38,317 nt of DNA from a virus: IMG/VR virus record IMGVR_UViG_3300032753_000083, positions 1 through 38,317 of that record; one strand, written 5' to 3'. The translations under genes and the position numbers were made by a program. Below the pieces are notes generated by a model. The model did no database searches. It saw only the letters and a list, made by a program, of their open reading frames with translations, and was not told where the DNA came from. Each line of letters starts with the position of its first letter. The first letter of the stretch is position 1. Shown in pieces: positions 18,501-34,270 of this stretch.

Positions 18501-21500
18501 GACGAACTTCGTGGTACTGTTGTACAACCAGCAAATGCTAACTTAAACTTAGTTAATGATAGACCAAAATCTATTAACTCATTAACACGTATTCAAAGTT
18601 TAATTCCAAACTTGTTACAAAATACAGTTATAACAGGAACAACTGGAAATACACAAGTACTAGCGACTACAGCCACAACTGGAACAGGTACAGTTGCAAC
18701 AATTAGTTTTGCAACTCAAACATCTGCACCATTTGTTGTAGGACAATACATTACAGTTAGCGGTGTAACTCCAAGTGGTTATAACGGAAGTTATGTTGTC
18801 ACAGCAGTAACAACAAATAGTGTAAGCTATGCAAACACAACAACTGCAAGCCAATCAGTTGCAGGTATTGTAAGTAGTCAAGTAACAGGATTGCCAGCAG
18901 GTGATGTTGGTAGTACAACTGCGGTAAACACAGTAAACACAAACGTACAGTTAATCAATAACATGATTTACAACGGTTTACCACAAACTCCTGCATTTAG
19001 TATTCCTGCCGTAACTAACTATAACACATATTATTTGAATGGATTTAGTTATGGTGTAACACAATTACAAAATAACTATAACTTTATCAAAGCAGAAATT
19101 GCGGCCTACTTAAACACATATTATAGTTCTGTATGGACTACATTTGGTAGCACAAACCAAACAGAAACTTTACGTGATGTTGGTTTTGTAGTAGACGGAT
19201 TACAATATGATATGGCTTATGGTTGTAACAACCAAAGTATCATCAATGGTAGTTCATACTATTCCTTGAATATTCCACAAATTTTAACAGCATATAGTCC
19301 AGCGACAGTTGGCGCATTACAAAGATTACAAGCAATCGTAAGTCAGATTGTTCAAGGTCAATCAGTTACAGCTACTTCTGGTAACAGCGTAACACAGTCA
19401 ACTGGTGGTAGTGCTGGTTCTGCGGCGGCTGGTGCATTTGCTGGAGCTCGTGTTGCTGACGTAATTTACTGGTTACAAAACGGTTATGCAAACTCAACTG
19501 TTAATAATATTACTGGTTCAATTAGCGGAACAACATTGACAGTTACAGCGGCTACATCGACTGTAGCTACTGGTGCGTTGTTAACTGGTACAGTATTAAC
19601 AACAACTGCAACAGCTACTAACAGTGGTACAGGTTTAGTATCTCTAGCTAGTACTACTGGCTTGTCAGCTGGTATGGCTATTACATTTACCGCAACATAC
19701 GGTTCTGGTAACCAATCAACATTTGGTGGGTTGTCACAAACAACTTATACAATTAACACAGTTTCAGCAGGTTCAGGTGTTACATTATACAACTATGGCA
19801 CATCAACACCTGCAACATTAACAACTGGTACAGGCTTAATGACTGCAACAGCAGGCGTTGCACCAGGTACTTATATTGTTAACCAAATTACAAGTATAGC
19901 AAGTGCCCAAGCCGCAACTACATTAGCAAGCGGTGGTTCAAGTGGTACTAACACATTTGTAGTATCAAGTGCAACTGGTATTGCGGCAGGTCAACTTGTA
20001 ACAGGTACTGGTATTCCAGCTGGTTCATATGTTATTTCAACATATACTTCTGGAACAACTGTTACTCTTGTTACAGCGGCAGGTGCTCCAAGCAACTTTA
20101 CAACTAACGGTTCCGGTGCATACTTATTCTACCCAGCAGGTTCAACAGGTACTTACACAGTTAACGTAAGTCAAACTATTACTGGTATTGCATTATCAAC
20201 TAACGCAACATTTACTCCAATCACATCTGGTGCATTTAGTTTCGCAAGTTCAACAGCATTGCAAACAGCTTACAATGCTTTAGTTGCACGTCAAAGCGAA
20301 ATTGCATCAGACGCTCAAGCATGGGTGGCAAAATACAATCAAGCATACAATATTAGTGCAACATTAAGTAACCGCGATGCTGGTTATATTTCAACTGCAT
20401 TAGCGTATGACATTTTGTTTGGATCAAACTTTAACAGTATTGCTTGTGGTCGTGCATTTAACCGTTTGAATACAAGTGCTCAAGCGTTGTTAGCAAACAC
20501 AAATAATGAATTGTATGCAACAACTGGTGCAATTACATTTATTGGATTCAAAGCGAAAGAAATCGCGGCAAGCGGTGCAACAGTTCAAGCAAGTACATTG
20601 ATTGATGATATTGTAACTAAGATTAACGGACAAGTTACAACTACATTGTCTACCGCTACAACAAGTACAAACGTATTAACAGTAGCAAGTACAACCGGTA
20701 TGGCAGTAAACATGCCAATCACATTCACCGGATTGCCAAGCCCAATCACAACAACTGCTACAATTACAGCTACTTCAACTAACTTAATTACTGTTGCCAA
20801 CTCAACAGGATTTGCTGTTGGACAACAAATTTACTTTACTAGTACAGTATTTGGTAACATTGTTCCAAGTCAATTGTATTACATTGCAAGTTTAAGTGGT
20901 AGCACTATCACCGTAAGTTTAACTTACGGTGGCGCCGCAGTTGCATTGGTTAACGGTACTGGTTCTATGAACGTTACAGTTAATAATGCTGGCGGTTTAT
21001 GGAACAATAACACCTATTGGATCAACAGCATTCCAAGCGGAACAACTATTACTATTACAAACAGTTTCAAGAGCGGAACTCCATACACAATTACTAACAC
21101 AGTAACAAGTATGACAGCCGCAGTTACAGCAGGTGCAACAGTCACATGGCCATATTCAAATAACCCAATGATTAACGGATCATTAACATATAATGATACA
21201 TTAACGACCATTCAGGGTGCTGAAATTTTACGTGCAAATATCTCATTCCTTGCATACGAAGCCGCGGCTTATACTCTTGCAAGTTATGGTGGTACAGTAA
21301 CAGCTACTACATCAAGCACAAACGTATTCACAACAAGCAGTAATCACAACTTTGTGGTTGGAGACCCAGTTGTGTTTAGCGGAACTGTAGCTGGCGGTGT
21401 TGTTGCAGGAACTACATATTATGTGTTGACAGTTCCAAACTCAACTACATTCTCAGTAAGTTCTACTCAAGCAGGTACAGGAACCCAAGCCGCATTGTCA

Positions 21501-24500
21501 TTGACTACAACATCTAGCGATAGTTTCACAGTAAGCTATTACTACAATACTGCTAAGTGTGTACGTGATACTACAAACTTTATTAACGCATTGATATATG
21601 ACTTAAATTACACAGGTAACTATAAGTCAATGAGAGCGGCTGAGCTTTATGTTAATGCTATTACAGGTTCGTTGACACAAAACTTCTACCTAGTAAGAAA
21701 TGCTTGCGGTATACGTAACCAAACAATGAACGGTTTGACAGGCACACTAAGTTCTGCAAACGCTTATGGTACAAAACGTCCAACAGCAGGTGCTTATACA
21801 AGTTTAGATCCAGGATTTGGTCCAAACGATAGTAACTCATGGGTATTCTCACGTAGTACATTCGTACAAAACTGTACAATGTTTGGATATGCATGTTCTG
21901 GTGCAAAAGTTGACGGAGCATTACACGCTGGCGGTTACAAGTCGATGGTTGCTAACGACTATACTTGTGTAATTGGTGATGGTATTGGTTGGTGGACAAC
22001 AGGTACCGGTTCATTATCAGAACTTGTTTCAGTGTTTAACTACTACTCATACGCAGGTTACTTGAGTGAGCTAGGCGGACGCATTCGTGCTACTAACGGT
22101 AACAGCTCATATGGTACATACGGTGTTATTGCTGAAGGCGTTGATACATACGAAACTCCAATTTACGGTACAGTAAACAACAGAAGTTTTGGTCCACAAA
22201 TTACCAACGTACTTACAGATAGTACAACACAAATTTTACGTCTAGAGTATGAAAATGCCGGACAAAACTATACAAACGCCGTACCAGTAGTAAGCGGATC
22301 TGGTTACAACATTATTTCATATCAAGATGAATATCGCGATGCCGCAGTATTTGAAACACGTTTAATCGACCTTAACAATGGTCAAGGTGTTGGCGGTTCA
22401 GCTTATGTTAGCGCAGTAAACGTTGGTCAAACTAATACATTAGGTGTTGGTTACCATCAAATTGCGGCGGCTGATACAGCATTGACTAGTGCATACAACG
22501 GTATGAGAATCTTAATTACTGCTGGTACAGGTGTTGGACAATATGCAAATATTTTAACATACACTAACGGTAGTAAAATTGCACAGATTGTTCGTCCAAC
22601 ATTTGTAACATTAACAGTTACAGGTTCAACAACTACAGTATTGCAAGTTGCAAGTACAAGTACATTATATGTAAATCAACCAATATACCTAAGTGCAACA
22701 ACAGCTGGTGTGTTTAGTGCGTACACAGTTTACTATGTACAGTCTATTCCTAACTTAACAACATTCACATTAAGCGCAACATCAAACGGTGCGGCAATTA
22801 CTGGTTTAACATCAACAAGCGCACAAACTATTAGTTTATATGCCGCTGGTTGGGACCATGTTGTTCCAGGAACACCAATCAATAATACAACTGACTTAAC
22901 AAGTGCTTATATTATTGAACCGGCAGTTTCATATACAAGCCCAGGTTATACTGCTACTGCAAGAACATTAAGTTCAAGTGTAAACTGGAGTTCTGTGGCA
23001 TCCGGTGCAGGGTACTACATGGCTGTTGCTACAGCTAGTACTGCAACAGCATACAGCACAACTGGTAAAACATGGACAGCAGGTGGAGCATTGCCAAGTT
23101 CGACAACATGGAATAACGTTGTATTTGGCGGCGGATCTGGCGCTCAAGCAACTGTTACATTAGGCGGTTTTGGTGGATCTGGTGCAGTATTAACAGCAAC
23201 TTTAGGATCTGGATTAACAGCAGGTCAGGTTGTTAGTGTAACTGTTGTTAACGGTGGATATAACTACACAACAGCACCAACAGTTCAATTTGTTGGTTCT
23301 GGTACAGGAGCGGCCGCAACAGCAGTTGTTCTTAACGGTGTAATTCAATCGGTCACTGTTACAGTTAACGGTTCTGGTTATGCTTCAGCTCCAACAGTTA
23401 ACGTAGTAACAAGTGCAGTAACAGCAGTAACTCCAATTACATGGGGACGTGGTTATCAAACAACTCCAACAGTTGTTATTGCTCCTCCATTCAGCGGTAC
23501 AGTTTGGAGTAACGGTGGAAGTGTAACAAGTGGACAATATTACTATTACTACTATGCTACAACACAAGCAACTAACTACTACCTTGCAACATCAAGCGGA
23601 ACATTTAGTTCAACACCTCCATCATTCACATCTGGTACAGGTGCATCAGGAACTTATGGTGTAAACTTAACTTATGTCGGTACACAAGCAACTGTAACAC
23701 CGACATTGACTAATACAGGTGTAAGTAGCTATGCTATTAACCAAATTGGTTATGGTTATACAAGCACACCAACTATTACAATTACAGACTTAGCGGCAAA
23801 ATTTGTTGCAATTTCTGGAACTACTGCAACTGCATATCTTGCTCCGAGTAGCATTGGATCTGCATGGACAGCAGGCAACGGTTTACCAACAGCAGGCTTT
23901 ACAGGCCTAGCATATGGTAACGGTGTATATGTTGCTGTTGGTATCTATTCAGGAACTAGTGCTATTGCATCGAGTACTGATGGTATTACTTGGGTTAACA
24001 GAACTGCTCCAGGCGTTGCTACTCAAGTATACAGTTCTGTAGCATTTGGACAAATGGGCCCAGGATCAAGCGCAACAACAACAGGTATGTTTGTTGCAGT
24101 TACATCTGGTTCTAACGTAACAGCCTATAGTACAAACGGCGTTTCATGGGTAGCTGGCGGTAACTTACCAAGTGTTGCTAGCTGGTCAAGTGTAACATAC
24201 GGTAACGGACGTTTTGTTGCAGTAGCATCTGGTAGCAACTTAACTGCTTACAGTAACAACGGTGGTGTTACATGGTATGCAAGTACAGCTAACGGCGGAT
24301 CAAACTTACCATTATCACAAAACTGGAGTGGTGTAAAATACGCAGAAGGATTGTTTGTAGCAACAGCTACTAGCCCAACTCCAACAGTTACTACAACTAC
24401 TCCTGTTTCAAACGTGATTACTTTGTCAAGTACAGCTGGTATTAACATTGGTAACACTTTTGTACCAACAGCAGTAACACAAAGTACAACAGCAACAGCA

Positions 24501-27500
24501 AGTTCTAACTCTACTGCAAGTAATAATAACGCAATTATTATTCCAACAACTACAACAGCTGGTACAGTTTTAAGTCCAATGGGAACAACAACTGGTACAT
24601 GGCTTGCAGGTATGGCATTAACTAGTACTGGTACTGTAACATCTGGTACCTGGGTAACTGCTCTTAATGCTGGTACAGTAACAACAACCGGTATTGCAAG
24701 TACTGTTGCAAGTACAACAGGTACAATTGGTGCATCAATTACAGGTTCAGGTACATTTGCCAGTCCATGGGTTGCAACAATTAGCGGTTTAAGTAGTGTT
24801 GCAACATTCGTAGTTGGCGCACAAATTACTGCAACATCAGGAACAGGTACATTATATGGTAGTACACCAACTAGTGTAACAGTAACAAGTATTGTTAACT
24901 CAACAACTATTACATATTCTGTAGTTGGCGGTACAACACCAACAGCAGGTACAGTAACCAACATCAGTCAAACTGTATTGACAGCAAGCGCATCGAGCAA
25001 CTTGTTACCAGGTATGGCTTTAACTGGCGGTGCTGTAACAGCAAGTTATGTAGCTGGACAGATTAGTTCAACAGGTACAGCATTAGCAACAGCATTGTTC
25101 ACTGGAACAACTGGAACTAACACAATCGTTCTAAGTTCGTTCACAGTTGGTACTATTGCTTCTGTGGCAGTTGGACAATTTGTTGCTCCAATAGCAGGTA
25201 TTCCAGCTAACACATTTGTTACAGCGGTTAACACAACTACAAGCACAATCACTATTAGTGCTAACTTGTATAGTTCAATTTCTGGATCAACTAGCACTTA
25301 TGCGGCTGGTACTGGTGCTGGAACTTATGCGTTAACTCCGTTAACAACTGGTACAATTACTGGAACACCAACTACAGGTACAAGTTATTCAGTAAGTATT
25401 ACTCAAACACAGGCCGCGGCTACTGTAACCGGTACGCAAAACTCAATTACAGTTGGTAGTACAGCTGGTATGGTTGCAGGCGAATCAATTGTATTCACTG
25501 GAACAAGTTTTGGTAACATTGTAGCAAGCACAACATACTACATTACTGAAGTTATTAGCTCAACATTGTTATCAGTTAGTTCAACTTACGGTGGTACAAA
25601 CTTTGTAGTAACTGCTGGTTCAGGTACAATGACTGCAACTGCTGGTTCTGTACTAGGCGGTTTAACTTCAGGTACAACATATTATGTTGTAAGTGTAAGT
25701 GGTAACCAAATTACAGTAAGTTTAAGTAACACATTAACTCCAGTATACTCTGTATCAAGTGGTAACGGTTCATGGAATAGCTTAACTGGTAACAACTTTG
25801 CGGCAACAAGTTGGGATGGTTTAAACTGGACTCAACAGTTATTGCCAACAAACGCAAGTTGGAGTGCTCCAGCATTTGGTAATATTCAAGCAAGTAACGT
25901 TGGATATAATCCATTATGGGTAACACTAGCACAGGCTGTACCTGGTACAATTATTTCTGTAGCAAGTTCATCTGGTACAACATTAACTTTAGGCTCTGCG
26001 GCTACACTAGTTGCAGGCCAAGCAATTACATTTGGTACAAGTTTTGGTAACATTGTTGCTGGAACAATTTACTATGTACAAGCATCCATTACTTCAAGTA
26101 CAAGTTTAACAATTAGTGCAACATACCTAGGAGGTGCGTTCACAGTTGGAACAGCATCTATTGCAAGTATTGGTACTGTTCTATCTACAACTACTGCGGC
26201 AAGTATGCATACTGGCGCAACACCATTAGGTCGTGCAAAAGTAGCAAGTGGTGCAATTACTGAAATTCGTATGATTGAACCAGGTAGCGGTTTCCCTAAA
26301 GGTAACGTTACTGCAACTACATCAGGAACTAACATTATTACTGTAGATAATACAGAAAACTTAATTGCTTTACAACCAGTAGAGTTTAATACAGTTAGTG
26401 CTGGAGGTTTATCAGTTCAAACAACTTACTATGTAATTGGTTCAAGCATTACTTCTAACTCGTTCCAAGTTGCGGCATCGGCGGCTCTAGCGACAATTGG
26501 TACAGCAGTAACTTTAACAACAAGTAGTCCAACTGGAATGATTTATACGGCTAGTCCGATTGTAACTATTACTGATCCAAACCACGTTAATACTGCGGCT
26601 ACTCGTGTACGTACAGGCGACGGTGTACTAGGTAACCCAAGTTTCCCTAACCGTGGTGCTGGTAACGCGACTGCAACTGCAAGTTCAGGTGGTGATGGTT
26701 ATGCAGATATCTATCAAAACACAGCATACATTAACATCGCTGGATTATATGCAATTCCACAAGCTGGTGCAAACGTACAGTTCTCAAATATTCCAAATGC
26801 TTGGTACAAACTAGTTATTGTAACCAACCAGTTGGGACAAGCAGGAAACTACACAGCACAGTTCCAAGTTAGCCCAAGTTTAACAACTTACCTTGCTCCA
26901 AACCATGGTGTACTAGTTACAACAAGATTGAAGTACAGTCAGGTTCGTTTAACTGGACATGACTTCTTGTATGTAGGTTCGGGTAACCAAACACAAACAA
27001 ACTATCCAAACGTTACAACTGCTAACGCAATACAAGCCAACCAAACATTCCCAAATATTGGTGGTCGTGTGTTCTTTACAGCTACTGACCAAGACGGTAA
27101 CTTTAACGTTGGTAACTTGTTCGGTGTACAACAAGCGACTGGTACTGCTACATTGAATGCTAACGCATTTAACTTAGCTGGTTTGCAGAGCTTGACACTT
27201 GGTTCTGTTAACTTAGGAGTTGGTTCAGCAACTATTACACAATTTAGTACTGATCCTTACTTTACTGCTAACAGTGACAACATTCTACCAACACAAAAGG
27301 CTATTAAGAGCTTTATTACAGCCCAAATTGGTGGCGGATCAAGTAGTTTGAACGTAAATACACTAACATCTGGTCAAATCTATGTTGCAAATAACAGCAT
27401 TTCTAACATTAACGGAACCCAGATTTATGTCAGCAGTAAAATGCTGTTCACAGGCGGAATTGATGGGGCACCTGTTGCTCTTGTATTCTTTGCATCAAGA

Positions 27501-27503
27501 TAA
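15540..27503 (+). CDS. Giant modular fibre/adhesin, paralogue 2 (3987 aa)
   Basis: One uninterrupted frame of 12 kb, with AGAGGAA upstream. The scaffold parallels the preceding gene: seven chitin-binding-type repeats (residues about 10-650), a pectin-lyase-like beta-helix (IFVKTGTYNEVLPIVVPA, IIGDELRG, later GIRNQTMNGLTG and GGRIRATNGNSSYGTYGVIA), Asp-box-like repeats near residues 2480-2930, and the same C-terminal TATDQDGNFNVGNLFGVQQ and ILPTQKAI. It is longer mainly because about 1000 residues are inserted in the beta-helix after DELRGTVVQP (about 18530-21685), with more further on. Family B cassettes lie near 16720-16935, 17775-18010, 19600-19850, 20640-20970 (two), 21296-21530, 22610-22840, 25430-25700, 25965-26175 and 26310-26540. 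Another widespread module (GGYNYTTAPTVQF type) lies near 23190-23410. Likely a very long fibre or sheet-like adhesin. Confidence 0.75.
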   Translation: MAEFKLGRIKFVYQGTWTIGTSYVVDDVVTVGGKTYICTQSNTASALFATDLNSGYWSIVADGSRWTGNWANSTYYLVGDQVLYGGIIYQCTTAHTSASSTATLTATAATANGTTATITFNALSSNIQPFLVGASITVSGFTAQSAFNGTYTVTACTPTTVSYALSQTLTGTVMGTVSGTGTLGLEVNQTSWTAFANNLNWTNTWSTNTRYKVRDLVSYGGYTYLCNTAHVSANTTASGLEANQSSWDVFNAGIAYQGAWSGSSVHYRLNDIVKYGASLWICTTPHTSTSTFATANFSVFVNGLEYVTGSWSGSTTYVTGDIVNYGGNLYTAIAVNTNQIPSTQSASWQIFNQGFSFVGDWSNALSYKVGQVVRQGGYTYLCTADNTVLTITATATTSGTNSVTVSSTTGLAAGVPIIFTGTSFGNITSGTQFYILSVIDSTHITLSATSGGAVLNVTSATGSLTGVTQVQPPFTGYWTRLNSGIRWNPGTATYTNIAGTNITGSGTGATFDITASKTYYTVTVHSGSAGSGYASTNTIKILGSQVGGISPANDITITVTGVSTGAISTITSTGYSVTWVSGATYVLGDTVYFGANTYICVSAHTSLTGNRPDNDATGAYWNVLASGAESAVLTTQGDMFYYGSTGPTRLPIGTDGQVLRVNGNVPAWQYYGQINNIVYVGPAGVDTVAASQGTSIDKPWATIRYACYQVENGYLNTNSTALLQLNKQFLLKEINNYVYYQYSFNVTGTSSTTLTVGGSSSVAQTTTTNMYVGMPIVFTTSSGSIVAGTVYYVQAIGSSTTFSISATFGGSVFTVGTGTANVGTYSYNQAKTERDTGIIVDGLISDIGRGGTLKTTQAVQAYFATSSSFATNVNSYDIVPFVSALNYLGTLAGNVLANTAPGTNYQTVLGVPSGSRAQQQINTTYTAETTIPARILQLLAIITGPLQLGNTNSLLPAVTPNTTIFVKTGTYNEVLPIVVPAYTAIIGDELRGTVVQPANANLNLVNDRPKSINSLTRIQSLIPNLLQNTVITGTTGNTQVLATTATTGTGTVATISFATQTSAPFVVGQYITVSGVTPSGYNGSYVVTAVTTNSVSYANTTTASQSVAGIVSSQVTGLPAGDVGSTTAVNTVNTNVQLINNMIYNGLPQTPAFSIPAVTNYNTYYLNGFSYGVTQLQNNYNFIKAEIAAYLNTYYSSVWTTFGSTNQTETLRDVGFVVDGLQYDMAYGCNNQSIINGSSYYSLNIPQILTAYSPATVGALQRLQAIVSQIVQGQSVTATSGNSVTQSTGGSAGSAAAGAFAGARVADVIYWLQNGYANSTVNNITGSISGTTLTVTAATSTVATGALLTGTVLTTTATATNSGTGLVSLASTTGLSAGMAITFTATYGSGNQSTFGGLSQTTYTINTVSAGSGVTLYNYGTSTPATLTTGTGLMTATAGVAPGTYIVNQITSIASAQAATTLASGGSSGTNTFVVSSATGIAAGQLVTGTGIPAGSYVISTYTSGTTVTLVTAAGAPSNFTTNGSGAYLFYPAGSTGTYTVNVSQTITGIALSTNATFTPITSGAFSFASSTALQTAYNALVARQSEIASDAQAWVAKYNQAYNISATLSNRDAGYISTALAYDILFGSNFNSIACGRAFNRLNTSAQALLANTNNELYATTGAITFIGFKAKEIAASGATVQASTLIDDIVTKINGQVTTTLSTATTSTNVLTVASTTGMAVNMPITFTGLPSPITTTATITATSTNLITVANSTGFAVGQQIYFTSTVFGNIVPSQLYYIASLSGSTITVSLTYGGAAVALVNGTGSMNVTVNNAGGLWNNNTYWINSIPSGTTITITNSFKSGTPYTITNTVTSMTAAVTAGATVTWPYSNNPMINGSLTYNDTLTTIQGAEILRANISFLAYEAAAYTLASYGGTVTATTSSTNVFTTSSNHNFVVGDPVVFSGTVAGGVVAGTTYYVLTVPNSTTFSVSSTQAGTGTQAALSLTTTSSDSFTVSYYYNTAKCVRDTTNFINALIYDLNYTGNYKSMRAAELYVNAITGSLTQNFYLVRNACGIRNQTMNGLTGTLSSANAYGTKRPTAGAYTSLDPGFGPNDSNSWVFSRSTFVQNCTMFGYACSGAKVDGALHAGGYKSMVANDYTCVIGDGIGWWTTGTGSLSELVSVFNYYSYAGYLSELGGRIRATNGNSSYGTYGVIAEGVDTYETPIYGTVNNRSFGPQITNVLTDSTTQILRLEYENAGQNYTNAVPVVSGSGYNIISYQDEYRDAAVFETRLIDLNNGQGVGGSAYVSAVNVGQTNTLGVGYHQIAAADTALTSAYNGMRILITAGTGVGQYANILTYTNGSKIAQIVRPTFVTLTVTGSTTTVLQVASTSTLYVNQPIYLSATTAGVFSAYTVYYVQSIPNLTTFTLSATSNGAAITGLTSTSAQTISLYAAGWDHVVPGTPINNTTDLTSAYIIEPAVSYTSPGYTATARTLSSSVNWSSVASGAGYYMAVATASTATAYSTTGKTWTAGGALPSSTTWNNVVFGGGSGAQATVTLGGFGGSGAVLTATLGSGLTAGQVVSVTVVNGGYNYTTAPTVQFVGSGTGAAATAVVLNGVIQSVTVTVNGSGYASAPTVNVVTSAVTAVTPITWGRGYQTTPTVVIAPPFSGTVWSNGGSVTSGQYYYYYYATTQATNYYLATSSGTFSSTPPSFTSGTGASGTYGVNLTYVGTQATVTPTLTNTGVSSYAINQIGYGYTSTPTITITDLAAKFVAISGTTATAYLAPSSIGSAWTAGNGLPTAGFTGLAYGNGVYVAVGIYSGTSAIASSTDGITWVNRTAPGVATQVYSSVAFGQMGPGSSATTTGMFVAVTSGSNVTAYSTNGVSWVAGGNLPSVASWSSVTYGNGRFVAVASGSNLTAYSNNGGVTWYASTANGGSNLPLSQNWSGVKYAEGLFVATATSPTPTVTTTTPVSNVITLSSTAGINIGNTFVPTAVTQSTTATASSNSTASNNNAIIIPTTTTAGTVLSPMGTTTGTWLAGMALTSTGTVTSGTWVTALNAGTVTTTGIASTVASTTGTIGASITGSGTFASPWVATISGLSSVATFVVGAQITATSGTGTLYGSTPTSVTVTSIVNSTTITYSVVGGTTPTAGTVTNISQTVLTASASSNLLPGMALTGGAVTASYVAGQISSTGTALATALFTGTTGTNTIVLSSFTVGTIASVAVGQFVAPIAGIPANTFVTAVNTTTSTITISANLYSSISGSTSTYAAGTGAGTYALTPLTTGTITGTPTTGTSYSVSITQTQAAATVTGTQNSITVGSTAGMVAGESIVFTGTSFGNIVASTTYYITEVISSTLLSVSSTYGGTNFVVTAGSGTMTATAGSVLGGLTSGTTYYVVSVSGNQITVSLSNTLTPVYSVSSGNGSWNSLTGNNFAATSWDGLNWTQQLLPTNASWSAPAFGNIQASNVGYNPLWVTLAQAVPGTIISVASSSGTTLTLGSAATLVAGQAITFGTSFGNIVAGTIYYVQASITSSTSLTISATYLGGAFTVGTASIASIGTVLSTTTAASMHTGATPLGRAKVASGAITEIRMIEPGSGFPKGNVTATTSGTNIITVDNTENLIALQPVEFNTVSAGGLSVQTTYYVIGSSITSNSFQVAASAALATIGTAVTLTTSSPTGMIYTASPIVTITDPNHVNTAATRVRTGDGVLGNPSFPNRGAGNATATASSGGDGYADIYQNTAYINIAGLYAIPQAGANVQFSNIPNAWYKLVIVTNQLGQAGNYTAQFQVSPSLTTYLAPNHGVLVTTRLKYSQVRLTGHDFLYVGSGNQTQTNYPNVTTANAIQANQTFPNIGGRVFFTATDQDGNFNVGNLFGVQQATGTATLNANAFNLAGLQSLTLGSVNLGVGSATITQFSTDPYFTANSDNILPTQKAIKSFITAQIGGGSSSLNVNTLTSGQIYVANNSISNINGTQIYVSSKMLFTGGIDGAPVALVFFASR
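15843..16080 (+). repeat. Family A Ig-like cassette, copy 5
   Basis: Contains a VSGFTAQSAFNGTYTVT stretch. It splits the second chitin-binding-like repeat between HTSAS and LGLEVNQTSW. An undisrupted sister repeat in the same protein reads HVSANTTASGLEANQSSW. Confidence 0.7.
17001..17273 (+). repeat. Family C cassette inserted at a precise site
   Basis: About 91 codons with GSGTGATFDIT, GSAGSGYASTNTIKILGS and GGISPANDITITVTGV. It falls between GIRW and the WVSGATYVLGDTVYFG strand of the seventh chitin-binding-like repeat. The paralogous protein reads straight through as GVLWTNRWATGNSYAVGDLV. Confidence 0.7.
18661..18882 (+). repeat. Family A Ig-like cassette, copy 6
   Basis: Contains GVTPSGYNGSYVVTAVTT followed by a SVSYA strand. 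It is part of the large expansion inside the beta-helix region of the 3987-residue protein. Confidence 0.65.
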
Positions 27504-27888: not shown

Positions 27889-29832
27889 ATGGCACGTTAT
27901 AATACCACACTAGCGACAGAAATAGTCTCTGGAGCACAAACACTCTTGTCACCAGCACAAGGTGGATACACAGAATTTCAAGGTACTGCACCTTATACTG
28001 TAACAATTCCAGGACCATCGTTGTTCCTAGGTCAGACACAAAGTTATTTTAATAACACATCTGGCATAGTTACACTTCAAACGCCAGCTGGTGTCATTAA
28101 CGGTCCTGGTTCAACAAGTTCTAACACAATAGCTTTGCCAGCAGGTAGCAGTATTATTATTGCATCTGATGGCACAAACTACAGCGTTATTACTTTTCCA
28201 GGCGGCCCACAATATGGAGTTACTGGAACATTTTCAAGCGATTTAATTAGTACCAACACAGGTACTGTTAACGTTTTTAATACTAACGCAACAGCAATCA
28301 ACGCATTTGGTAATGCAAGTACAATTAACATTGGTTCAAGTACTGGTACAACAACAATTAATAACTCACTATTAGTTAAGGGCGGTATTACTACAGTTAA
28401 CTCAAGTTCAGTATTAGTTGAAGACAAGAACATTGAAATTGGTTATGTTAACCCAGTTAGTTATGGTGGCGGTACTATTGGTACTATTACTGGTTCATTG
28501 GGCTCGAGTACAACATTTACAAGTATTACTGGTACTAAAGTAACAGCCGCAAGTACATATAGTGGTGTTAGTCAATTCGCAACAAGTGGTGTTGGTACCG
28601 GTGCAACATTTAACATAACAACTACTGGTGCAGGTACAACATATACTGGCGTAACTACAATTACATTAGTTAACCCGGGTTCAGGATATGCAATTAACGA
28701 TACAATTACTATTGGTGGTAGTTCTTTAGGCGGTACAACTAGCCCAAACAACTTAACATTTACAGTTAGTAACGTAATTTACTCACCATGGACTGCAACT
28801 GTTACTCTTATGACCAACACAACCAACTTGGTCGCTGGTCAATCAGTTAGTGCAACTAACGGTACAGGTAGCTTAGGAGGCGGCGGTACAAGTTATATTA
28901 TTTCTAACGTTCCAAGTTCAACAAGTATACAAGTAACTGCAACAGGTGGTACAACTCCAACAGCAGGTACTATTACAGCAATTATTCCAGGTAGTGCTGA
29001 TACATTTGCCAACGGCGGCGGCATTAAATTATACGGATCAACTAATCACTTATTAACATGGAACAGCGCCGCAAACGGACCAGCTAACGGTAACCAAAAC
29101 CCAGCATGGGTAAGTACTGAAGGTTTAATGATTAGTACTTCTAACGGTTTTGGTATTCAAAATACCGGTAACGTTAACTTTAACATTTTAACCAACGGAC
29201 AGGCAACAGGTACTGTATCTATTGCAACTAACGCGGGTACAGGTAACTTGTTTACTAACGCAAGTTCGGGCGTTTCAATTGGTGCTAGCGGTGGTACTGC
29301 TACAATTAGTAACACTAACCTTACAGTTGGACAGTCTGGTGGTACAGTTACTTTCAACGGTATTACAACTTTCACAATGAACAGCGTAACATCGTTTAAC
29401 TTAACTGGCGGTGGTACAATGAACGCTGGTAGTACATATGGTTATTTTAGTTCTCTAGGCGTTGGTACTAACACTAACGGTGGCGGCGGTACAATTTATG
29501 CTTCAAACAACATTGTTGCTTACTATTCTGATGATAGATTAAAGACACGTTTGGGCAAAATTGAAGATGCTCTTGCTAAATTAGAAACATTAAATGGTTT
29601 CTACTTCGAAGCTAACCAAACTGCTCAAGATTTGGGCTATACCGTTCAACGTGAAGTTGGAGTTTCGGCTCAAGAAGTCAACGCAATCCTGCCAGAAATT
29701 ATTAAACCAGCTCCGATTGACGCTAAGTACATGACAGTTCAATACGAAAAGTTATTACCTTTAGTAATTGAAGCAGTTAAGGAATTGTCAGCCCAAGTTA
29801 AAGAATTGAAAAAACAAATTAACAAAGAGTAA
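27889..29832 (+). CDS. Tail fibre with C-terminal S74 intramolecular chaperone (647 aa)
   Basis: The N-terminus (FQGTAPYTVTIPGP, then QSYFNNTSGIVTLQTP and SIIIASDGTNYSVIT) is a common phage fibre attachment module. The middle is a beta shaft interrupted by a family C cassette (about 28555-28775) and more Gly/Thr modules. The last 101 residues are a peptidase S74 (endosialidase-type) chaperone domain: YYSDDRLKTRLGKIEDALAK, GFYFEAN, a GVSAQEV motif, LPEII and MTVQYEKLLPLVIEAVKEL, ending in a short coiled coil. In this family the domain drives trimerisation and then cleaves itself off using a Ser-Lys dyad; here Ser547 and Lys552 fit, with cleavage expected just before Ser547. Only 3 bp separate it from the Asn/Cys-rich gene. 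Confidence 0.9.
   Translation: MARYNTTLATEIVSGAQTLLSPAQGGYTEFQGTAPYTVTIPGPSLFLGQTQSYFNNTSGIVTLQTPAGVINGPGSTSSNTIALPAGSSIIIASDGTNYSVITFPGGPQYGVTGTFSSDLISTNTGTVNVFNTNATAINAFGNASTINIGSSTGTTTINNSLLVKGGITTVNSSSVLVEDKNIEIGYVNPVSYGGGTIGTITGSLGSSTTFTSITGTKVTAASTYSGVSQFATSGVGTGATFNITTTGAGTTYTGVTTITLVNPGSGYAINDTITIGGSSLGGTTSPNNLTFTVSNVIYSPWTATVTLMTNTTNLVAGQSVSATNGTGSLGGGGTSYIISNVPSSTSIQVTATGGTTPTAGTITAIIPGSADTFANGGGIKLYGSTNHLLTWNSAANGPANGNQNPAWVSTEGLMISTSNGFGIQNTGNVNFNILTNGQATGTVSIATNAGTGNLFTNASSGVSIGASGGTATISNTNLTVGQSGGTVTFNGITTFTMNSVTSFNLTGGGTMNAGSTYGYFSSLGVGTNTNGGGGTIYASNNIVAYYSDDRLKTRLGKIEDALAKLETLNGFYFEANQTAQDLGYTVQREVGVSAQEVNAILPEIIKPAPIDAKYMTVQYEKLLPLVIEAVKELSAQVKELKKQINKE
28555..28775 (+). repeat. 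Family C cassette, copy 3
   Basis: Contains GVGTGATFNITTTGAG, NPGSGYAINDTITIGGSSLG and SPNNLTFTV. It is inserted in the shaft of the S74 fibre between its IEIGYVNP strand and the FANGGGIKLYGSTN strand. Confidence 0.65.
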
Positions 29833-29835
29833 AAA

Positions 29836-30225
29836 ATGACAACACCTTCCGGAACAATATACATCAGCCAAGTTGACGGCGAAATTGGACTACCAAATAG
29901 TAGTCCATATTCTAACCTAAGTTTCTTGAACGGCTATGTTATTCCTGGTCAGCGCGATTCATATCCTGATATGAACGAAATGCGTAACAGAGCATACTAC
30001 CAGTCAAATAACAAAGGCAACTGTAACAACGGTAACTGCGGAAATTGTAATTGTAATTGCGGTAATATCTGTTGCTATAACTGTTATATTAATGGTCACA
30101 TTAATTGTACAAACTGCGACGGACAAAACTGGTTACAAAACAACTGTAATTGTAACTGTACCTATAATTGCAATTATGCTTCAGGATCATATAACTGTAA
30201 TTGTAATTGTAACTGTAATTGTTAA
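29836..30225 (+). CDS. Asn/Cys-repeat protein, putative virion-borne substrate of the radical SAM enzyme (129 aa)
   Basis: Residues 1-56 (PSGTIYISQVDGEIGLPNSS, then LSFLNGYVIPG) resemble the short N-terminal domain of many phage appendage proteins (SG.I..S.I..E.G..S....SL). Residues 57-129 are dominated by Asn and Cys: 19 Cys at 63, 68, 71, 73, 75, 79, 80, 83, 91, 94, 104, 106, 108, 112, 121, 123, 125, 127 and 129, ending in five Asn-Cys pairs. A single Trp (W99) lies in this tail. The gene begins 3 bp after the S74 fibre gene and is followed 16 bp later by a radical SAM/SPASM enzyme, the usual order of precursor and maturase in RiPP clusters. I infer that the tail is cross-linked or otherwise modified. 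Metal binding or disulphide packing are alternatives. I do not recognise a named family. Confidence 0.7.
   Translation: MTTPSGTIYISQVDGEIGLPNSSPYSNLSFLNGYVIPGQRDSYPDMNEMRNRAYYQSNNKGNCNNGNCGNCNCNCGNICCYNCYINGHINCTNCDGQNWLQNNCNCNCTYNCNYASGSYNCNCNCNCNC
30193..30222 (+). repeat. (AAYTGT)5 hexanucleotide repeat encoding (Asn-Cys)5
   Basis: Five in-frame AAY-TGT units end the Asn/Cys-rich gene just before its TAA. Shorter in-frame runs of the same unit lie at 30043-30060 and 30142-30159. Gain or loss of whole units by slippage would change the number of Asn-Cys pairs without breaking the frame. Confidence 0.85.
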
Positions 30226-30241
30226 CAAGACAAGGAACAAC

Positions 30242-31720
30242 ATGATTTTTGAAATTCTGGCAGAAAGATATGGTACTGGCGTTACCGATCAAAAGACATT
30301 TTTTTACGATAACGAAAAAAATATCTTAAGTGATGAAACTGGTTATATCTGGGAATATCCTAACACCTACGCTAATTCAACATTTATACAAGATGTTCCA
30401 TATAAGCCATTTGATAAAAATAATCCTTTGAAAAAATCAAAGGATGTACGTACAGTAAAAATTCAAATGGGGTTATCTTGTAATTACAGTTGTGATTATT
30501 GCAGTCAGAAATTTGTCGAACGTCCACGTGAAACTAACGCTAAAGATATTGAAAACTTTATGGAGTTATTCAATAACTTAAATTTTAGCGAAGATCGTGG
30601 ATTACGTGTTGAGTTCTGGGGCGGCGAGCCATTTGTTTATTGGAAAACAATGAAACCATTGGCCGAAGCTATTGCAGAAAGATTTAAAGACTGGAAAAAT
30701 AAACCATCATTTAGCGTTATTACTAATGGTAGTTTGTTAACAGAAGAAAATTGTGCATGGTTATATAGCATGGGATTCCACGTTGCTGTCAGTCACGACG
30801 GTCCTGGACAATTCACTCGCGGACCAGACCCGTTTGAAGATCCTAAAAAACGTGAAGTTGTATTAGATTTATATCAAATTTTACGTCCTTTAAACCGTAT
30901 GAGCTTTAACTCTATGTTAAGTTATAAAAATCAAAGTCGTAAAGCAATTTATGATTGGTTTGTCGACTTTACAAATGATCCAAGTGTATTGTTAGGCGAA
31001 GGAACATTTGTAGATGCATACGATGAAGACGGTTTAGAAAATTCACTTAAAACAAAAGCAGATCATTTTGCCTTTAGACAACGTTCTTTTGGGGAAATAT
31101 TTGGAACTAATGGAGAAATTGGTTTTACAGGTATACTTGGTAAGATTGATAATTTTACAGAAGACTTGTTAACACATCGAGAAGCAGATTATCTCGGTCA
31201 AAAATGCGGCATGGACAGTGAAGAAACTGTTGCATTTGACCTACGTGGAAATGTAATTACATGTCAAAACGTAAGTGCATTAGAAACAGGTAAAAATGGT
31301 GAACCACATTTAAGCGGTAACATTGCAAATATCGAAGATGTTTCAATTTCAACAAGTACACACTGGTCAAACCGTAAAGAATGTCCAGAGTGCCCCGTAT
31401 TACATATTTGTAAAGGTGCATGTATGTTCTTAGATGGCGTTTACTGGAAAGCTAGTTGTAACAATGCCTACTCAGATAACGTGCCATTGTTCGCCGCAAG
31501 TATTGAAAAAATTACAGGCTACATTCCTGTATTAATTAAGAGCGATACATTACCTTTAGATCGTCAAGATATCTGGGGTAATATATACAAACACGAAGAA
31601 GAACAACCAAAGAAAATTATACCAATTAAGGTAGTCAGTGAAAAAGTTGCGGTAATCGATAACATCGAAGTTTACGGCAAAAGTTCCCTGATAAATACTA
31701 CAGAAGAATCAGGAGCATGA
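30242..31720 (+). CDS. Radical SAM/SPASM peptide-maturase-like enzyme (492 aa)
   Basis: The canonical CNYSCDYC motif (Cys80, Cys84, Cys87) binds the catalytic [4Fe-4S] cluster and S-adenosylmethionine; the SAM-binding WGGEP follows at residues 126-130. The C-terminal half has the full SPASM cysteine pattern for auxiliary clusters: Cys322, then G336-X4-Cys341, then Cys381-X2-Cys384-X5-Cys390-X3-Cys394 and Cys406. Enzymes of this class modify ribosomal peptides (thioether or C-C cross-links, epimerisation) or activate sulphatases. The start is ATG 30242, preceded by AAGGAAC; an earlier in-frame ATG at 30092 lies inside the Asn/Cys gene and is rejected. Residues 1-70 might bind a leader, but I see no clear PqqD-like fold. 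The position beside a Cys-rich small protein argues for a peptide substrate. Confidence 0.88.
   Translation: MIFEILAERYGTGVTDQKTFFYDNEKNILSDETGYIWEYPNTYANSTFIQDVPYKPFDKNNPLKKSKDVRTVKIQMGLSCNYSCDYCSQKFVERPRETNAKDIENFMELFNNLNFSEDRGLRVEFWGGEPFVYWKTMKPLAEAIAERFKDWKNKPSFSVITNGSLLTEENCAWLYSMGFHVAVSHDGPGQFTRGPDPFEDPKKREVVLDLYQILRPLNRMSFNSMLSYKNQSRKAIYDWFVDFTNDPSVLLGEGTFVDAYDEDGLENSLKTKADHFAFRQRSFGEIFGTNGEIGFTGILGKIDNFTEDLLTHREADYLGQKCGMDSEETVAFDLRGNVITCQNVSALETGKNGEPHLSGNIANIEDVSISTSTHWSNRKECPECPVLHICKGACMFLDGVYWKASCNNAYSDNVPLFAASIEKITGYIPVLIKSDTLPLDRQDIWGNIYKHEEEQPKKIIPIKVVSEKVAVIDNIEVYGKSSLINTTEESGA
31690..31698 (+). promoter_or_regulatory. T4-type late promoter (GATAAATAC) inside the radical SAM gene end
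   Basis: Seven of eight bases match TATAAATA. Predicted transcription start is near 31703, giving a short leader with AGGAG at 31711-31715 before the ATG at 31722. The spacing to ribosome-binding site and start resembles that at 15506. It would give the 306-residue protein and the halogenase-like gene extra late expression. Confidence 0.5.
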
Positions 31721-31721
31721 A

Positions 31722-32642
31722 ATGAATTTATACTTGGCAAACGGAACTAACAGATTATATGCATTATCAATTCAACTTGACGAGTCAAGTTTGACTTATA
31801 AGACATATGATGTGTATGAAACAATTAAATTAAAGCAATTCTGGGAAACACAAACAGGTAACGTATTACCTGGATCTTTATTTGATAAAGCACCTACACC
31901 TGCTATAACACCTGCATGGGTTACTGAAACATATTCAGTTTACGAAAGCCAATCACCTGAATCGCAAACTATTAATTTTTCGGACATTCAAGGTTTATCT
32001 GATTTTTCAGATCACGGTATTTTCATGTTGTATTCACCAGATTCTCCGTCTTATGTTTCTCCGATTAGACCAACGGCTCCTTCTTCGGTGCCAGCAGGAA
32101 AAACATCGATTAGAGTTCCACTTCATAACGGATACGCACTGACTACTGGTTCAAAAATGAGTCCATTTGTTCATAGTGCATTTAATAACAATATTGCTAT
32201 GATTGCAATATGTGTGCCATTTGCAAGTGCTCCAGTTGATCAATGGTCAATTGTGTTTAACGTGAAAGATTCTAGTTTGTTTAAGTTAACATCTGGACAA
32301 GCAACAACACCAATGCAAGGAAATAGCGTTGGTAAATTTACAAAAAGTTTATTACCTAAAGTATGGTTTACTAATAAAACTATGACTGTAACTGCTGATG
32401 GATTTGTTGATGTTCCTTTTTACTTAGGAGATTCAACAGGAAATCCTATCACACAATCAGATGCAACTGTATATTTGAAAACCACAGCAGGACAGTTAAA
32501 CAAACAACAAGTTACCACAATTAATGGTCAAGGTACTGTTCGTTTAATTGCAAGTCATTTAGTTTCTGGAGAAACTGCAACTATTAGTTGCGGATTTAAA
32601 TTATTCTCGGGAACAGACGATTGCGTTGTCACTGTAAATTAA
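31722..32642 (+). CDS. Unrecognised protein with Ig-like C-terminal domain (306 aa)
   Basis: I do not recognise the family. Residues 1-55 are mixed alpha/beta (MNLYLANGTNRLYALSIQLD), and residues 70-210 are aromatic- and Ser/Pro-rich with strand-like stretches. Residues about 214-306 read as a bacterial Ig-like domain (VWFTNKTMTVTADGFVDVPF, ITQSDATVYLKTTAGQL, GQGTVRLIASHL, ending in a CVVTVN strand). There is no catalytic motif, signal peptide or membrane segment. Composition is closer to the virion proteins than to the enzymes around it. It begins 1 bp after the radical SAM stop with AGGAG upstream and is followed 7 bp later by the halogenase-like gene. It could be a second virion substrate, a scaffold presenting the substrate, or an unrelated appendage protein. 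Confidence 0.6.
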   Translation: MNLYLANGTNRLYALSIQLDESSLTYKTYDVYETIKLKQFWETQTGNVLPGSLFDKAPTPAITPAWVTETYSVYESQSPESQTINFSDIQGLSDFSDHGIFMLYSPDSPSYVSPIRPTAPSSVPAGKTSIRVPLHNGYALTTGSKMSPFVHSAFNNNIAMIAICVPFASAPVDQWSIVFNVKDSSLFKLTSGQATTPMQGNSVGKFTKSLLPKVWFTNKTMTVTADGFVDVPFYLGDSTGNPITQSDATVYLKTTAGQLNKQQVTTINGQGTVRLIASHLVSGETATISCGFKLFSGTDDCVVTVN

Positions 32643-32649
32643 GGAAAAT

Positions 32650-33861
32650 ATGAAAATAGGAATTGTAGGTTCTGGAACCGCCAGCGCAGTTTCACTATTA
32701 AAAATATTTGAACAACTCGAAAAACATCAATGTAAGCATGTTGATGTTTTTTGCATTTATGATCCTAACATTCCTATCACTACGGTAGGGGAAAGCACTA
32801 GTTCGTTATTGCCAATCTTGTTATACAACGTAGCAAATTTTTCAATAACCGAAGAAATGCAACATTTTGATGGTACATTAAGATGGGGTACTCGATACTA
32901 TTGGAAAGATGCTAACGATACAGAGTTTTTTGTTAAAAACGGTATACCAGGTTTGCACGTTAATAGTGAAAAATTTAGTAGATTTGTAATTAATAGGCTA
33001 GATGAAATTTACGAAAACTTTAGCCAGATACATGGCAACGTATCTAGTATGACACAAGATGCATATAAAGTTACGGCAGTCATCGATGATGTTGAACATA
33101 AATTTGATTTTTTAATCGATTGCAGAGGAAATCCAACAGAAGAAGAATTGAATAGTGGCGCATACAGCTTTCCTCAATTTGAAACAGTTAATTCTGTTAT
33201 ATTATATCCAGATTTTAAAGAATATAATGAAGATATTACATCAGCGTATGTACATGAAGATGGGTGGATGTTCGGAGTTCCACTAACACATCGAAAAGCG
33301 TTTGGATATTTGTACAATAAAAACTTTACAAGTCACGAAGAAGCAAGTGAAAAATTTGCAAAATTAAAAGGTATCGATACAATTAATCTAAGAAGATTCA
33401 GTTGGAGACAGTATTATAAAAATACTGCTATGGACGGAAGAATTATGTCTATGGGAAATCGATTACAATTCTTTGAACCTGCACAAGCATTGCCGTTACA
33501 TTATTACATTAATTTAACAATGGAATTCATTAGTCGAATTATTAATAATAATTTAGACGTACATAAGATGAATATACAATTAAATTTTGACCATAGAAAA
33601 AATATAGAAGGAATGCAAAATTTAATTGCATTAAATTATTGCGGGTCTTGTAATATTAAAAGTCCGTTCTGGGAATATGCTACAATTAACTCAAGAAAAC
33701 GTCTAAAAAATTCTCAACAGTTTCAACAATATTTAAGAGACTGTGAAAAATCTGAAAAAATTGAAATATACTGGTGGCATAACGCCCAGTTAATGAAAGA
33801 ATACATTGACGGATTTGGAATTAAATTAGATCAACTAAGTCAAAAACAGTCTGCAACTTAG
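32650..33861 (+). CDS. Flavin-dependent tryptophan-halogenase-like protein (403 aa)
   Basis: The N-terminal GIVGSGTASA (residues 4-13) is the FAD-binding loop, followed by TTVGESTSSLL (residues 44-54), as in tryptophan halogenases. Residues 205-211 (GWMFGVP) occupy the place of the family's GWxWxIP motif, with Phe for the second Trp, followed by GYLYNKNFTSHEEA (usual GYVYS..F.S..EA). NRLQFFEPAQALPLHYY (residues 270-286) matches the F.EPLESTS region. Where halogenases have the catalytic Lys in FK.., this protein has TLRWGTRYYW with Arg78, so chlorinating activity is uncertain. Halogenase-like genes are known in cyanophage-type myoviruses. The AAGGAAA start signal lies 7 bp after the previous gene. 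Its last 41 bp overlap the Nudix gene on the other strand. Possible roles are peptide Trp halogenation or another flavin oxidation. Confidence 0.75.
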   Translation: MKIGIVGSGTASAVSLLKIFEQLEKHQCKHVDVFCIYDPNIPITTVGESTSSLLPILLYNVANFSITEEMQHFDGTLRWGTRYYWKDANDTEFFVKNGIPGLHVNSEKFSRFVINRLDEIYENFSQIHGNVSSMTQDAYKVTAVIDDVEHKFDFLIDCRGNPTEEELNSGAYSFPQFETVNSVILYPDFKEYNEDITSAYVHEDGWMFGVPLTHRKAFGYLYNKNFTSHEEASEKFAKLKGIDTINLRRFSWRQYYKNTAMDGRIMSMGNRLQFFEPAQALPLHYYINLTMEFISRIINNNLDVHKMNIQLNFDHRKNIEGMQNLIALNYCGSCNIKSPFWEYATINSRKRLKNSQQFQQYLRDCEKSEKIEIYWWHNAQLMKEYIDGFGIKLDQLSQKQSAT

Positions 33862-34270
33862 TTCTTATTGTTTTGCTACTAAAACTGTTACGTAACCCTT
33901 GGTGCAAAGGTTTAGGAGCACGATCGATAGTAGTCCATGCCCATCCAATATGTTCGTCACTTAGTGTTGGAATAAATTCAGATTCTATCACACACAAGTA
34001 TGTGTGGAAATTAAAAACTTTGTCGTTACTAACAAATGTTTCTAGAGGTATAGTTTTAATTATATTAGGTACAGCGCCTATTTCTTCTTTAATTTCACGT
34101 TGTAAACCTTGCCAAGGTGTTTCTCCAGTGATATTAGTACCACCTACTAGCCCCCAAGTGCCTTCGTGTTTACCGTGACTTTTTTGAAGAAGTAAAAATC
34201 GTTGTGTAGACTTTGCATAAAACAATGCACCACTACAAACAATTTGTTCTTTTACAATACTATTTTCCAT
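33821..34270 (-). CDS. Nudix hydrolase (149 aa)
   Basis: A complete Nudix box, GGTNITGETPWQGLQREIKE followed by EIGA (GX5EX7REUXEEXG), follows an MutT-like beta strand (RFLLLQKSHGKHEGTWGLVG). The Glu residues of REIKEE would bind Mg2+ for hydrolysis of a nucleoside diphosphate linked to another group. Small Nudix enzymes of T4-type phages act on damaged or host nucleotides, or on ADP-ribose/NAD-type substrates; the substrate here cannot be told. The ATG is 19 bp inside the end of the gp15-like gene, so the two are co-transcribed and coupled. At the other end the gene runs 41 bp into the convergent halogenase-like gene, leaving no room for a terminator between them. Confidence 0.88.
   Translation of the reverse strand: MENSIVKEQIVCSGALFYAKSTQRFLLLQKSHGKHEGTWGLVGGTNITGETPWQGLQREIKEEIGAVPNIIKTIPLETFVSNDKVFNFHTYLCVIESEFIPTLSDEHIGWAWTTIDRAPKPLHQGLRNSFSSKTIRTKLQTVFDLVDLI

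Follow-up and report, generated by a model that had tools for sequence, protein, structure and literature searches.

A radical SAM/SPASM enzyme of phages that probably matures the asparagine-cysteine tails of fibre-type virion proteins

Introduction

What would a phage do with a radical SAM enzyme of the SPASM type, encoded among its late genes? The question is raised by the gene at 30242-31720 in a viral DNA of 38,317 nucleotides (IMG/VR record IMGVR_UViG_3300032753_000083), the whole of which we call the window. Radical SAM genes in phages have already been catalogued. Here we ask whether this one is a peptide maturase and, if so, what its substrate might be. The reading at which we arrive is that of a SPASM peptide maturase with a virion protein as its substrate, to which we assign a probability of about 0.7.

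Results

The enzyme and its cysteines

The gene at 30242-31720 (+) is an open reading frame of 492 amino acids that translates without an internal stop, with a Shine-Dalgarno-like AAGGAA (30232-30237, +) ahead of its ATG. A longer reading frame of 542 amino acids from 30092 was rejected as the true protein, because it starts within the upstream cysteine-rich gene in another frame and overlaps it, and because the relatives begin near the ATG at 30242. The protein belongs to the radical SAM superfamily by its match to PF04055 (2.1e-9, 38.2 bits against a cut-off of 29.5), and it matches phrog_1802, 'radical SAM domain-containing protein', with 204.8 bits (E 5.4e-60). These matches, ten invariant cluster cysteines and an AlphaFold2 model together identify it as a radical SAM/SPASM enzyme of the phrog_1802 family.

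The CX3CX2C motif of the SAM-cleaving [4Fe-4S] cluster occupies residues 80-87 (cysteines 80, 84 and 87; 30479-30502, +). The SPASM region, residues 322-406 (31205-31459, +), contains seven cysteines, at 322 and 341 (CX13GX4C, with G336), at 381, 384, 390 and 394 (CX2CX5CX3C) and at 406. This arrangement fits the published SPASM motif CX9-15GX4C-Xn-CX2CX5CX3C-Xn-C (PMC5715301) and places the protein among the SPASM enzymes; two auxiliary clusters are expected in the region. Only one further cysteine, Cys171, lies outside the ten cluster positions. Both motifs were found in all 37 diverse relatives that we aligned, with all ten cysteines invariant; not one of 20,000 shuffled versions of the window protein has the two together. 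We infer from this conservation that the enzyme is functional.

Fold, profiles and phylogeny

The AlphaFold2 model, built on the alignment of 37 sequences, has a pLDDT of 87.6 and a pTM of 0.85. Its top structural match is CteB (Z 24.1 over 328 residues, 3.4 Å), followed by ChlB (20.6), anSMEcpe (20.4), TigE (18.2) and SuiB (15.1). All five are SPASM enzymes that act on peptides or proteins; viperins and further enzymes with small-molecule substrates rank below them. The N-terminal part of the model (residues 2-49), made up of three strands and a short helix, aligns in part with the N-terminal region of CteB; neither the model nor the structural comparison revealed a complete RiPP recognition element.

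The leading profiles are those of the geopeptide, PapB and QhpD maturases, all far below their cut-offs. The window protein scores 71.2 bits against 340 for the PapB ranthipeptide maturases (NF047865), 57.8 against 453 for QhpD (TIGR03906), 44.5 against 425 for the SCIFF maturases (TIGR03974) and 41.3 against 349 for anSME (TIGR03942). It falls below every curated NCBIfam cut-off, and filing it under a named SPASM family was therefore rejected. Across the whole family the PapB profile is the best, matching 37 of 37 members with E values down to 2.7e-25. In a maximum-likelihood tree of 66 clusters of the family, with two QhpD sequences as the sole references from a named family, a long branch with 100/100 support splits the 66 clusters from the references.

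A sequence-only reading of this DNA had proposed a complete radical SAM and SPASM cysteine set in an enzyme of the peptide-maturase type. Every cysteine was found where that reading had put it. The assignment to the peptide maturases is supported, since peptide or protein maturases make up almost all of the nearest profiles and folds; the window protein did not fall into any characterised subfamily with a non-peptide substrate.

Genomic setting of the window gene

The enzyme gene starts 16 bases after the end of a gene at 29836-30225 (+) for a cysteine-rich protein of 129 amino acids, the presumed substrate, whose homologues lie beside the enzyme in 52 loci. This protein has a short N-terminal domain of structural type followed by a C-terminal half rich in cysteine and asparagine (residues 63-129; 30022-30222, +) with 19 cysteines. 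Its C-terminus is NCNCNCNCNC, including an (Asn-Cys)5 run in mixed codons (30193-30222, +), which is the part that recurs in the family's other tail proteins. A direct search gave no homologues of the 129-residue protein among named phages, to which low-complexity filtering may contribute, and PHROGs gave no recognition of this small protein as a fibre.

Directly upstream of the cysteine-rich gene lies a tail-fibre gene with an S74 intramolecular chaperone (27889-29832, +; PF13884, 2.5e-8; tail PHROGs). Downstream of the enzyme the window encodes a gp15-like tail-sheath stabiliser, a virion structural protein and a neck-type protein, by their Pfam and PHROGs matches. The neighbouring genes thus give a T4-like late and tail-fibre setting, in agreement with the phage late region named earlier. 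The same late region contains two giant reading frames, of 3987 amino acids (15540-27503, +; rich in Ser, Thr and Gly, and repetitive) and 2777 amino acids (7172-15505, +).

Linkage from enzyme to tail

Is the cysteine-rich neighbour a peculiarity of the window? Relatives of the enzyme were collected from 80 viral contigs, which together with bacterial contigs gave 66 non-redundant clusters at 80% identity. We looked within 6 kb of each enzyme gene for a reading frame with the strict tail motif [NDASTG]C[NDAST]C[NDASTR]C. Such a frame lies on the same strand in 53 of the 66 clusters. By the general criterion for a RiPP system, a nearby ribosomal precursor with repeated modifiable residues is therefore present in these 53, as the gene with the Asn-Cys tail. 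On the opposite strand the motif occurs in three clusters of the 66, all antisense shadows of a true tail. The 13 clusters lacking the strict tail comprise five with variant cysteine tails (L039-L048; L066/L075, with INCRNCNC; L262; L267/L273; L281), four at a contig edge (L203, L234, L241 and L250) and four distant ones (L249, L264, L275 and L276) where a recognisable tail is absent. Altogether a tail of some form occurs in about 58 of the 66.

The form and place of the tail protein vary. In the group nearest to the window, the enzyme is immediately preceded by the homologue of the 129-residue protein. A second group has a cysteine-rich homologue that is fused to a domain we call SKIIC and follows the enzyme, and one copy carries a fused Hint domain. 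Among more distant relatives (44-49% identity) an obvious cysteine-rich protein is missing, and a tail-fibre-type gene of 320-440 amino acids located 2-2.5 kb upstream ends likewise, for example in HHHHNNCTNCNCNC or YNFNCNCNCACDCCC. The pairing of enzyme and tail spans phages and prophages of very different kinds. The members that lack a tail are scattered among the tailed ones in the tree, which suggests that the family had the tail from the start and that its absence in these members is secondary.

Some loci depart from the simple pairing. A tandem pair of Asn-Cys-tailed genes precedes a single enzyme in three (L161, L173 and L181), and in another (L165) two genes like that of the enzyme flank one tailed gene. 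The genome of Thalassobacter stenotrophicus (L248, G003) contains three full-length copies of the enzyme and one partial copy, which suggests several prophages with the system. In Sulfuritalea a distant member (L249:5797-7161) lies downstream of ABC-transporter-like and HlyD-type export-like genes and has no Asn-Cys tail; it possibly belongs to a cellular peptide pathway.

Linkage from tail to enzyme

The association was also examined in the reverse direction. Viral contigs were scanned, blind to the enzyme, with a DNA pattern for Asn-Cys-Asn-Cys-Asn-Cys-stop. Among the matches listed, the enzyme lay near 41 of the 64 reading frames ending in NCNCNC, compared with none of 54 sites where the pattern was out of frame. 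For the newly met contigs alone, the listed matches gave 25 of 45 in frame and 0 of 54 out of frame. Where at least 3.5 kb of DNA was present beyond the tail, the enzyme was found in 29 of 32 listed matches, always on the same strand.

The three long-flanked frames lacking the enzyme (L143, L154 and L162) belong to other phage proteins. No other radical SAM gene was found near the unaccompanied NCNCNC proteins of L154, L162 and L185, and the neighbourhood of L143 contains a single unrelated CX3CX2C stretch. Two other families of phage late proteins, one of 202 amino acids (L098, L136, L162 and L185) and one of 184-190 (L095, L154 and L174), end in NCNCNC in stretches examined that have no such enzyme. 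An origin of the tails by chance or as a simple hexanucleotide repeat was rejected on the basis of the out-of-frame control, the strand control, the mixed codons and the recurrence of the same residues across many bacterial hosts.

The partner proposed by the sequence-only reading, residues 57-129 of the upstream protein, is supported by the same-strand (Asn-Cys)n gene beside relatives of the enzyme and by the recovery of the enzyme in a search for the tail alone. The cysteine-rich part (from residue 63) stands, while the tail-fibre C-terminal form of the partner and its wide spread had been missed.

These data bear on the possibility that the enzyme is a hitch-hiking metabolic gene, with a small molecule or host molecules as its target. 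Phages do carry other radical SAM genes, such as those resembling QueE, and for pelagimyophages radical SAM cassettes have been mentioned in the host recognition cluster with neither function nor substrate (PMC7029224). However, a steady linkage to the tail of a structural protein across unlike phages and prophages, together with a peptide-maturase fold, makes this explanation hardly credible. Adjacency alone is no proof of catalysis. Nevertheless the genomic linkage in both directions, the motifs of the enzyme, its predicted fold and the position of the run argue that the (Asn-Cys)n tail is very probably its substrate.

Anatomy of the tail

Successive cysteines are mostly two residues apart, in 377 cases over 99 distinct tails. 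The residue between them is Asn in 282, Ala in 38 and Asp in 34, and the residue ahead of the run is Asn in 84 tails. In 43 clusters the run closes the protein; in seven it precedes a Hint domain and in five the SKIIC domain. The Hint domain abuts the run in phages JWF and 2-1 and in Burkholderia paludis MSh1 (in JWF as NCNCDCNCNCS-CFPAGT). Hint domains self-cleave, and by analogy cleavage in these three could free the run at or near a new C-terminus. When ten of the tailed proteins were tested, seven matched tail PHROGs, as tail fibres; one of the seven is collagen-like.

Might the run simply hold metal? CXC repeats are classic metal ligands, some fibre tips bind iron through HxH sites, and in one group of the tails HHHH or DPHHHH stands directly ahead of the run. 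The run could then be the metal-binding, metallothionein-like tip of a trimeric fibre, with the enzyme making some other change or aiding metal loading. To our knowledge the metal-binding tips of known fibres need no radical SAM enzyme, and this explanation leaves the near-constant, intact SPASM maturase unaccounted for; we consider it unlikely.

Alternatively, the enzyme could convert tail cysteines into formylglycine, as does anSME, or epimerise or oxidise residues in the manner of EpeE, forming no cross-links. The structural closeness of anSME is in keeping with this, and the JWF copy is annotated as an anaerobic sulfatase-maturating enzyme. Yet the sulfatase motif C-X-[A/P]-X-R occurs in none of 112 tails, which makes formylglycine formation less likely, and the window protein scores far under the anSME cut-off. 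The regular alternation of Asn and Cys moreover suggests pairing, and modification of this kind is improbable.

Accessory genes

The gene that follows the enzyme (31722-32642, +) encodes a partner protein of 306 amino acids with an Ig-like domain at residues 211-306. In its AlphaFold2 model (pLDDT 89.5) that domain, the last 96 residues, matches bacterial Ig domains, among them those of intimin/invasin type. Homologues occur in 33 of the 66 clusters, often immediately ahead of the enzyme, as might be expected if the Ig-like protein or some other neighbour were the true substrate and the tailed fibre merely shared the host-recognition cluster. Against this, the tail is found also in clusters that have no Ig-like gene (JWF, 2-1 and L012-L034), the tail alone predicts the enzyme, and no repeated modifiable motif is common to the Ig-like proteins. 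We regard such a substrate as very improbable.

A gene of the 2OG-FeII_Oxy_5 type lies near the enzyme in 25 clusters, often between fibre and enzyme. In the window's lineage only, comprising five clusters, the pair of enzyme and Ig-like genes is followed by a flavin-dependent halogenase of tryptophan type (32650-33861, +, in the window; PF04820, 6.5e-29). A GWMFGVP stretch in this protein resembles a variant of the WxWxIP motif, and among named proteins it is closest to cyanophage halogenases, with about 32% identity. The halogenase, the oxygenase and the Ig-like protein may be further tailoring or assembly factors, and no accessory gene equals the tail in constancy beside the enzyme.

Other neighbours were seen in particular lineages. 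A Nudix hydrolase gene on the opposite strand (33821-34270, -) shares 41 bases with the end of the halogenase gene and is 84-91% conserved in 11 related contigs. In a group of aquatic phages (L058-L079) the enzyme is followed closely by a gene for a DctP-type solute-binding protein (L069:7526-8470; PF03480, 6.8e-44) and by one of 351 amino acids with an SGGIDST motif.

Discussion

How might enzyme and tail work together? We propose that the late products of the phage include a tail-fibre-type protein with an alternating Asn/Cys run at its C-terminus, or before a Hint or SKIIC domain. The enzyme from the same gene cluster would reductively cleave SAM at its CX3CX2C cluster and abstract a hydrogen from a residue of the run, and its two SPASM clusters would be used to form a covalent modification there. 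This would most likely be a thioether from the cysteine sulfur to carbons of the neighbouring Asn, Asp or Ala, so that the fibre tip would carry a compact, cross-linked cap. For this mechanism as a whole, a phage SPASM maturase that modifies a cysteine-rich fibre tip, most likely through thioethers, the probability of about 0.7 given above applies. Its parts differ in strength. The thioether product is suggested by the relatives, since CteB, which has the closest fold, forms thioethers, and it has about an even chance of being correct. By analogy, the 1:1 alternation of Cys with Asn, Asp or Ala would suit pairwise cross-links. The purpose, a stable or a receptor-binding fibre tip, we would put at even odds.

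Known systems resemble this one in part. The CteB/SCIFF maturases (TIGR03974; PDB 5wgg, 5why) offer the closest solved fold, have three clusters and act on a cysteine-rich ribosomal peptide encoded nearby. However, their substrate is a small free precursor peptide, whereas here a phage structural protein ends in the cysteine run. The window enzyme differs further by its low score, and no complete N-terminal recognition domain was recognised in it. In the PapB-type systems (NF047865), as here, there are many cysteines each with an Asp/Asn-type neighbour. PapB joins each cysteine to a carbon of Asp or Glu, tolerating Cys-Xn-Asp spacings of n = 0-6 (PMC9413430). In the phage tails the acceptors would be mostly Asn and the spacing is C-X-C rather than CX3D. 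Since just 20 of 112 tails contain CX3[DE], and Asn is what mostly separates the cysteines, the PapB reaction is not simply transferable. The protein-acting SPASM enzyme anSME (PDB 4k36-4k39) is similar in fold and gives a long profile alignment, but differs in score and in the target motif that is missing from the tails.

A named relative is gp30 of Achromobacter phage JWF, of the same phrog_1802 family and in the same arrangement with an Asn-Cys-tailed fibre, gp28. It differs in that a Hint domain follows the run, and its annotation is only that of a radical SAM protein or sulfatase maturase, with no description of the link to the tail. JWF is a cultured temperate siphovirus (PMC3899368), and the prediction is therefore testable on existing virions. 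The pelagimyophage cassettes are comparable by enzyme class and location alone, as radical SAM genes of T4-like aquatic phages that lie in the tail-fibre region. We found no paper in the open-access literature linking phage radical SAM genes to tail fibres or to the NCNCNC tail, although an earlier description elsewhere is possible.

We know of no virion with Cys-Asn thioether chemistry. If our reading is right, phages build a part of the virion by RiPP-type radical chemistry at the point where contact with the host is expected. An unnamed PHROG family would gain a function, virions would have a predictable pattern of modified residues, and peptide cross-linking enzymes would have a new, C-terminal substrate tag. 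There would also be a hint of where to seek the role that halogenases and oxygenases play in aquatic phages. The broadest form of the proposal is that a widespread, previously unrecognised phage system cross-links Asn-Cys fibre tips, its maturase being joined in some cases by a 2OG-Fe(II) oxygenase or a flavin halogenase. We see the chances of this as evenly divided; if true, it would define a class of post-translationally matured viral adhesins.
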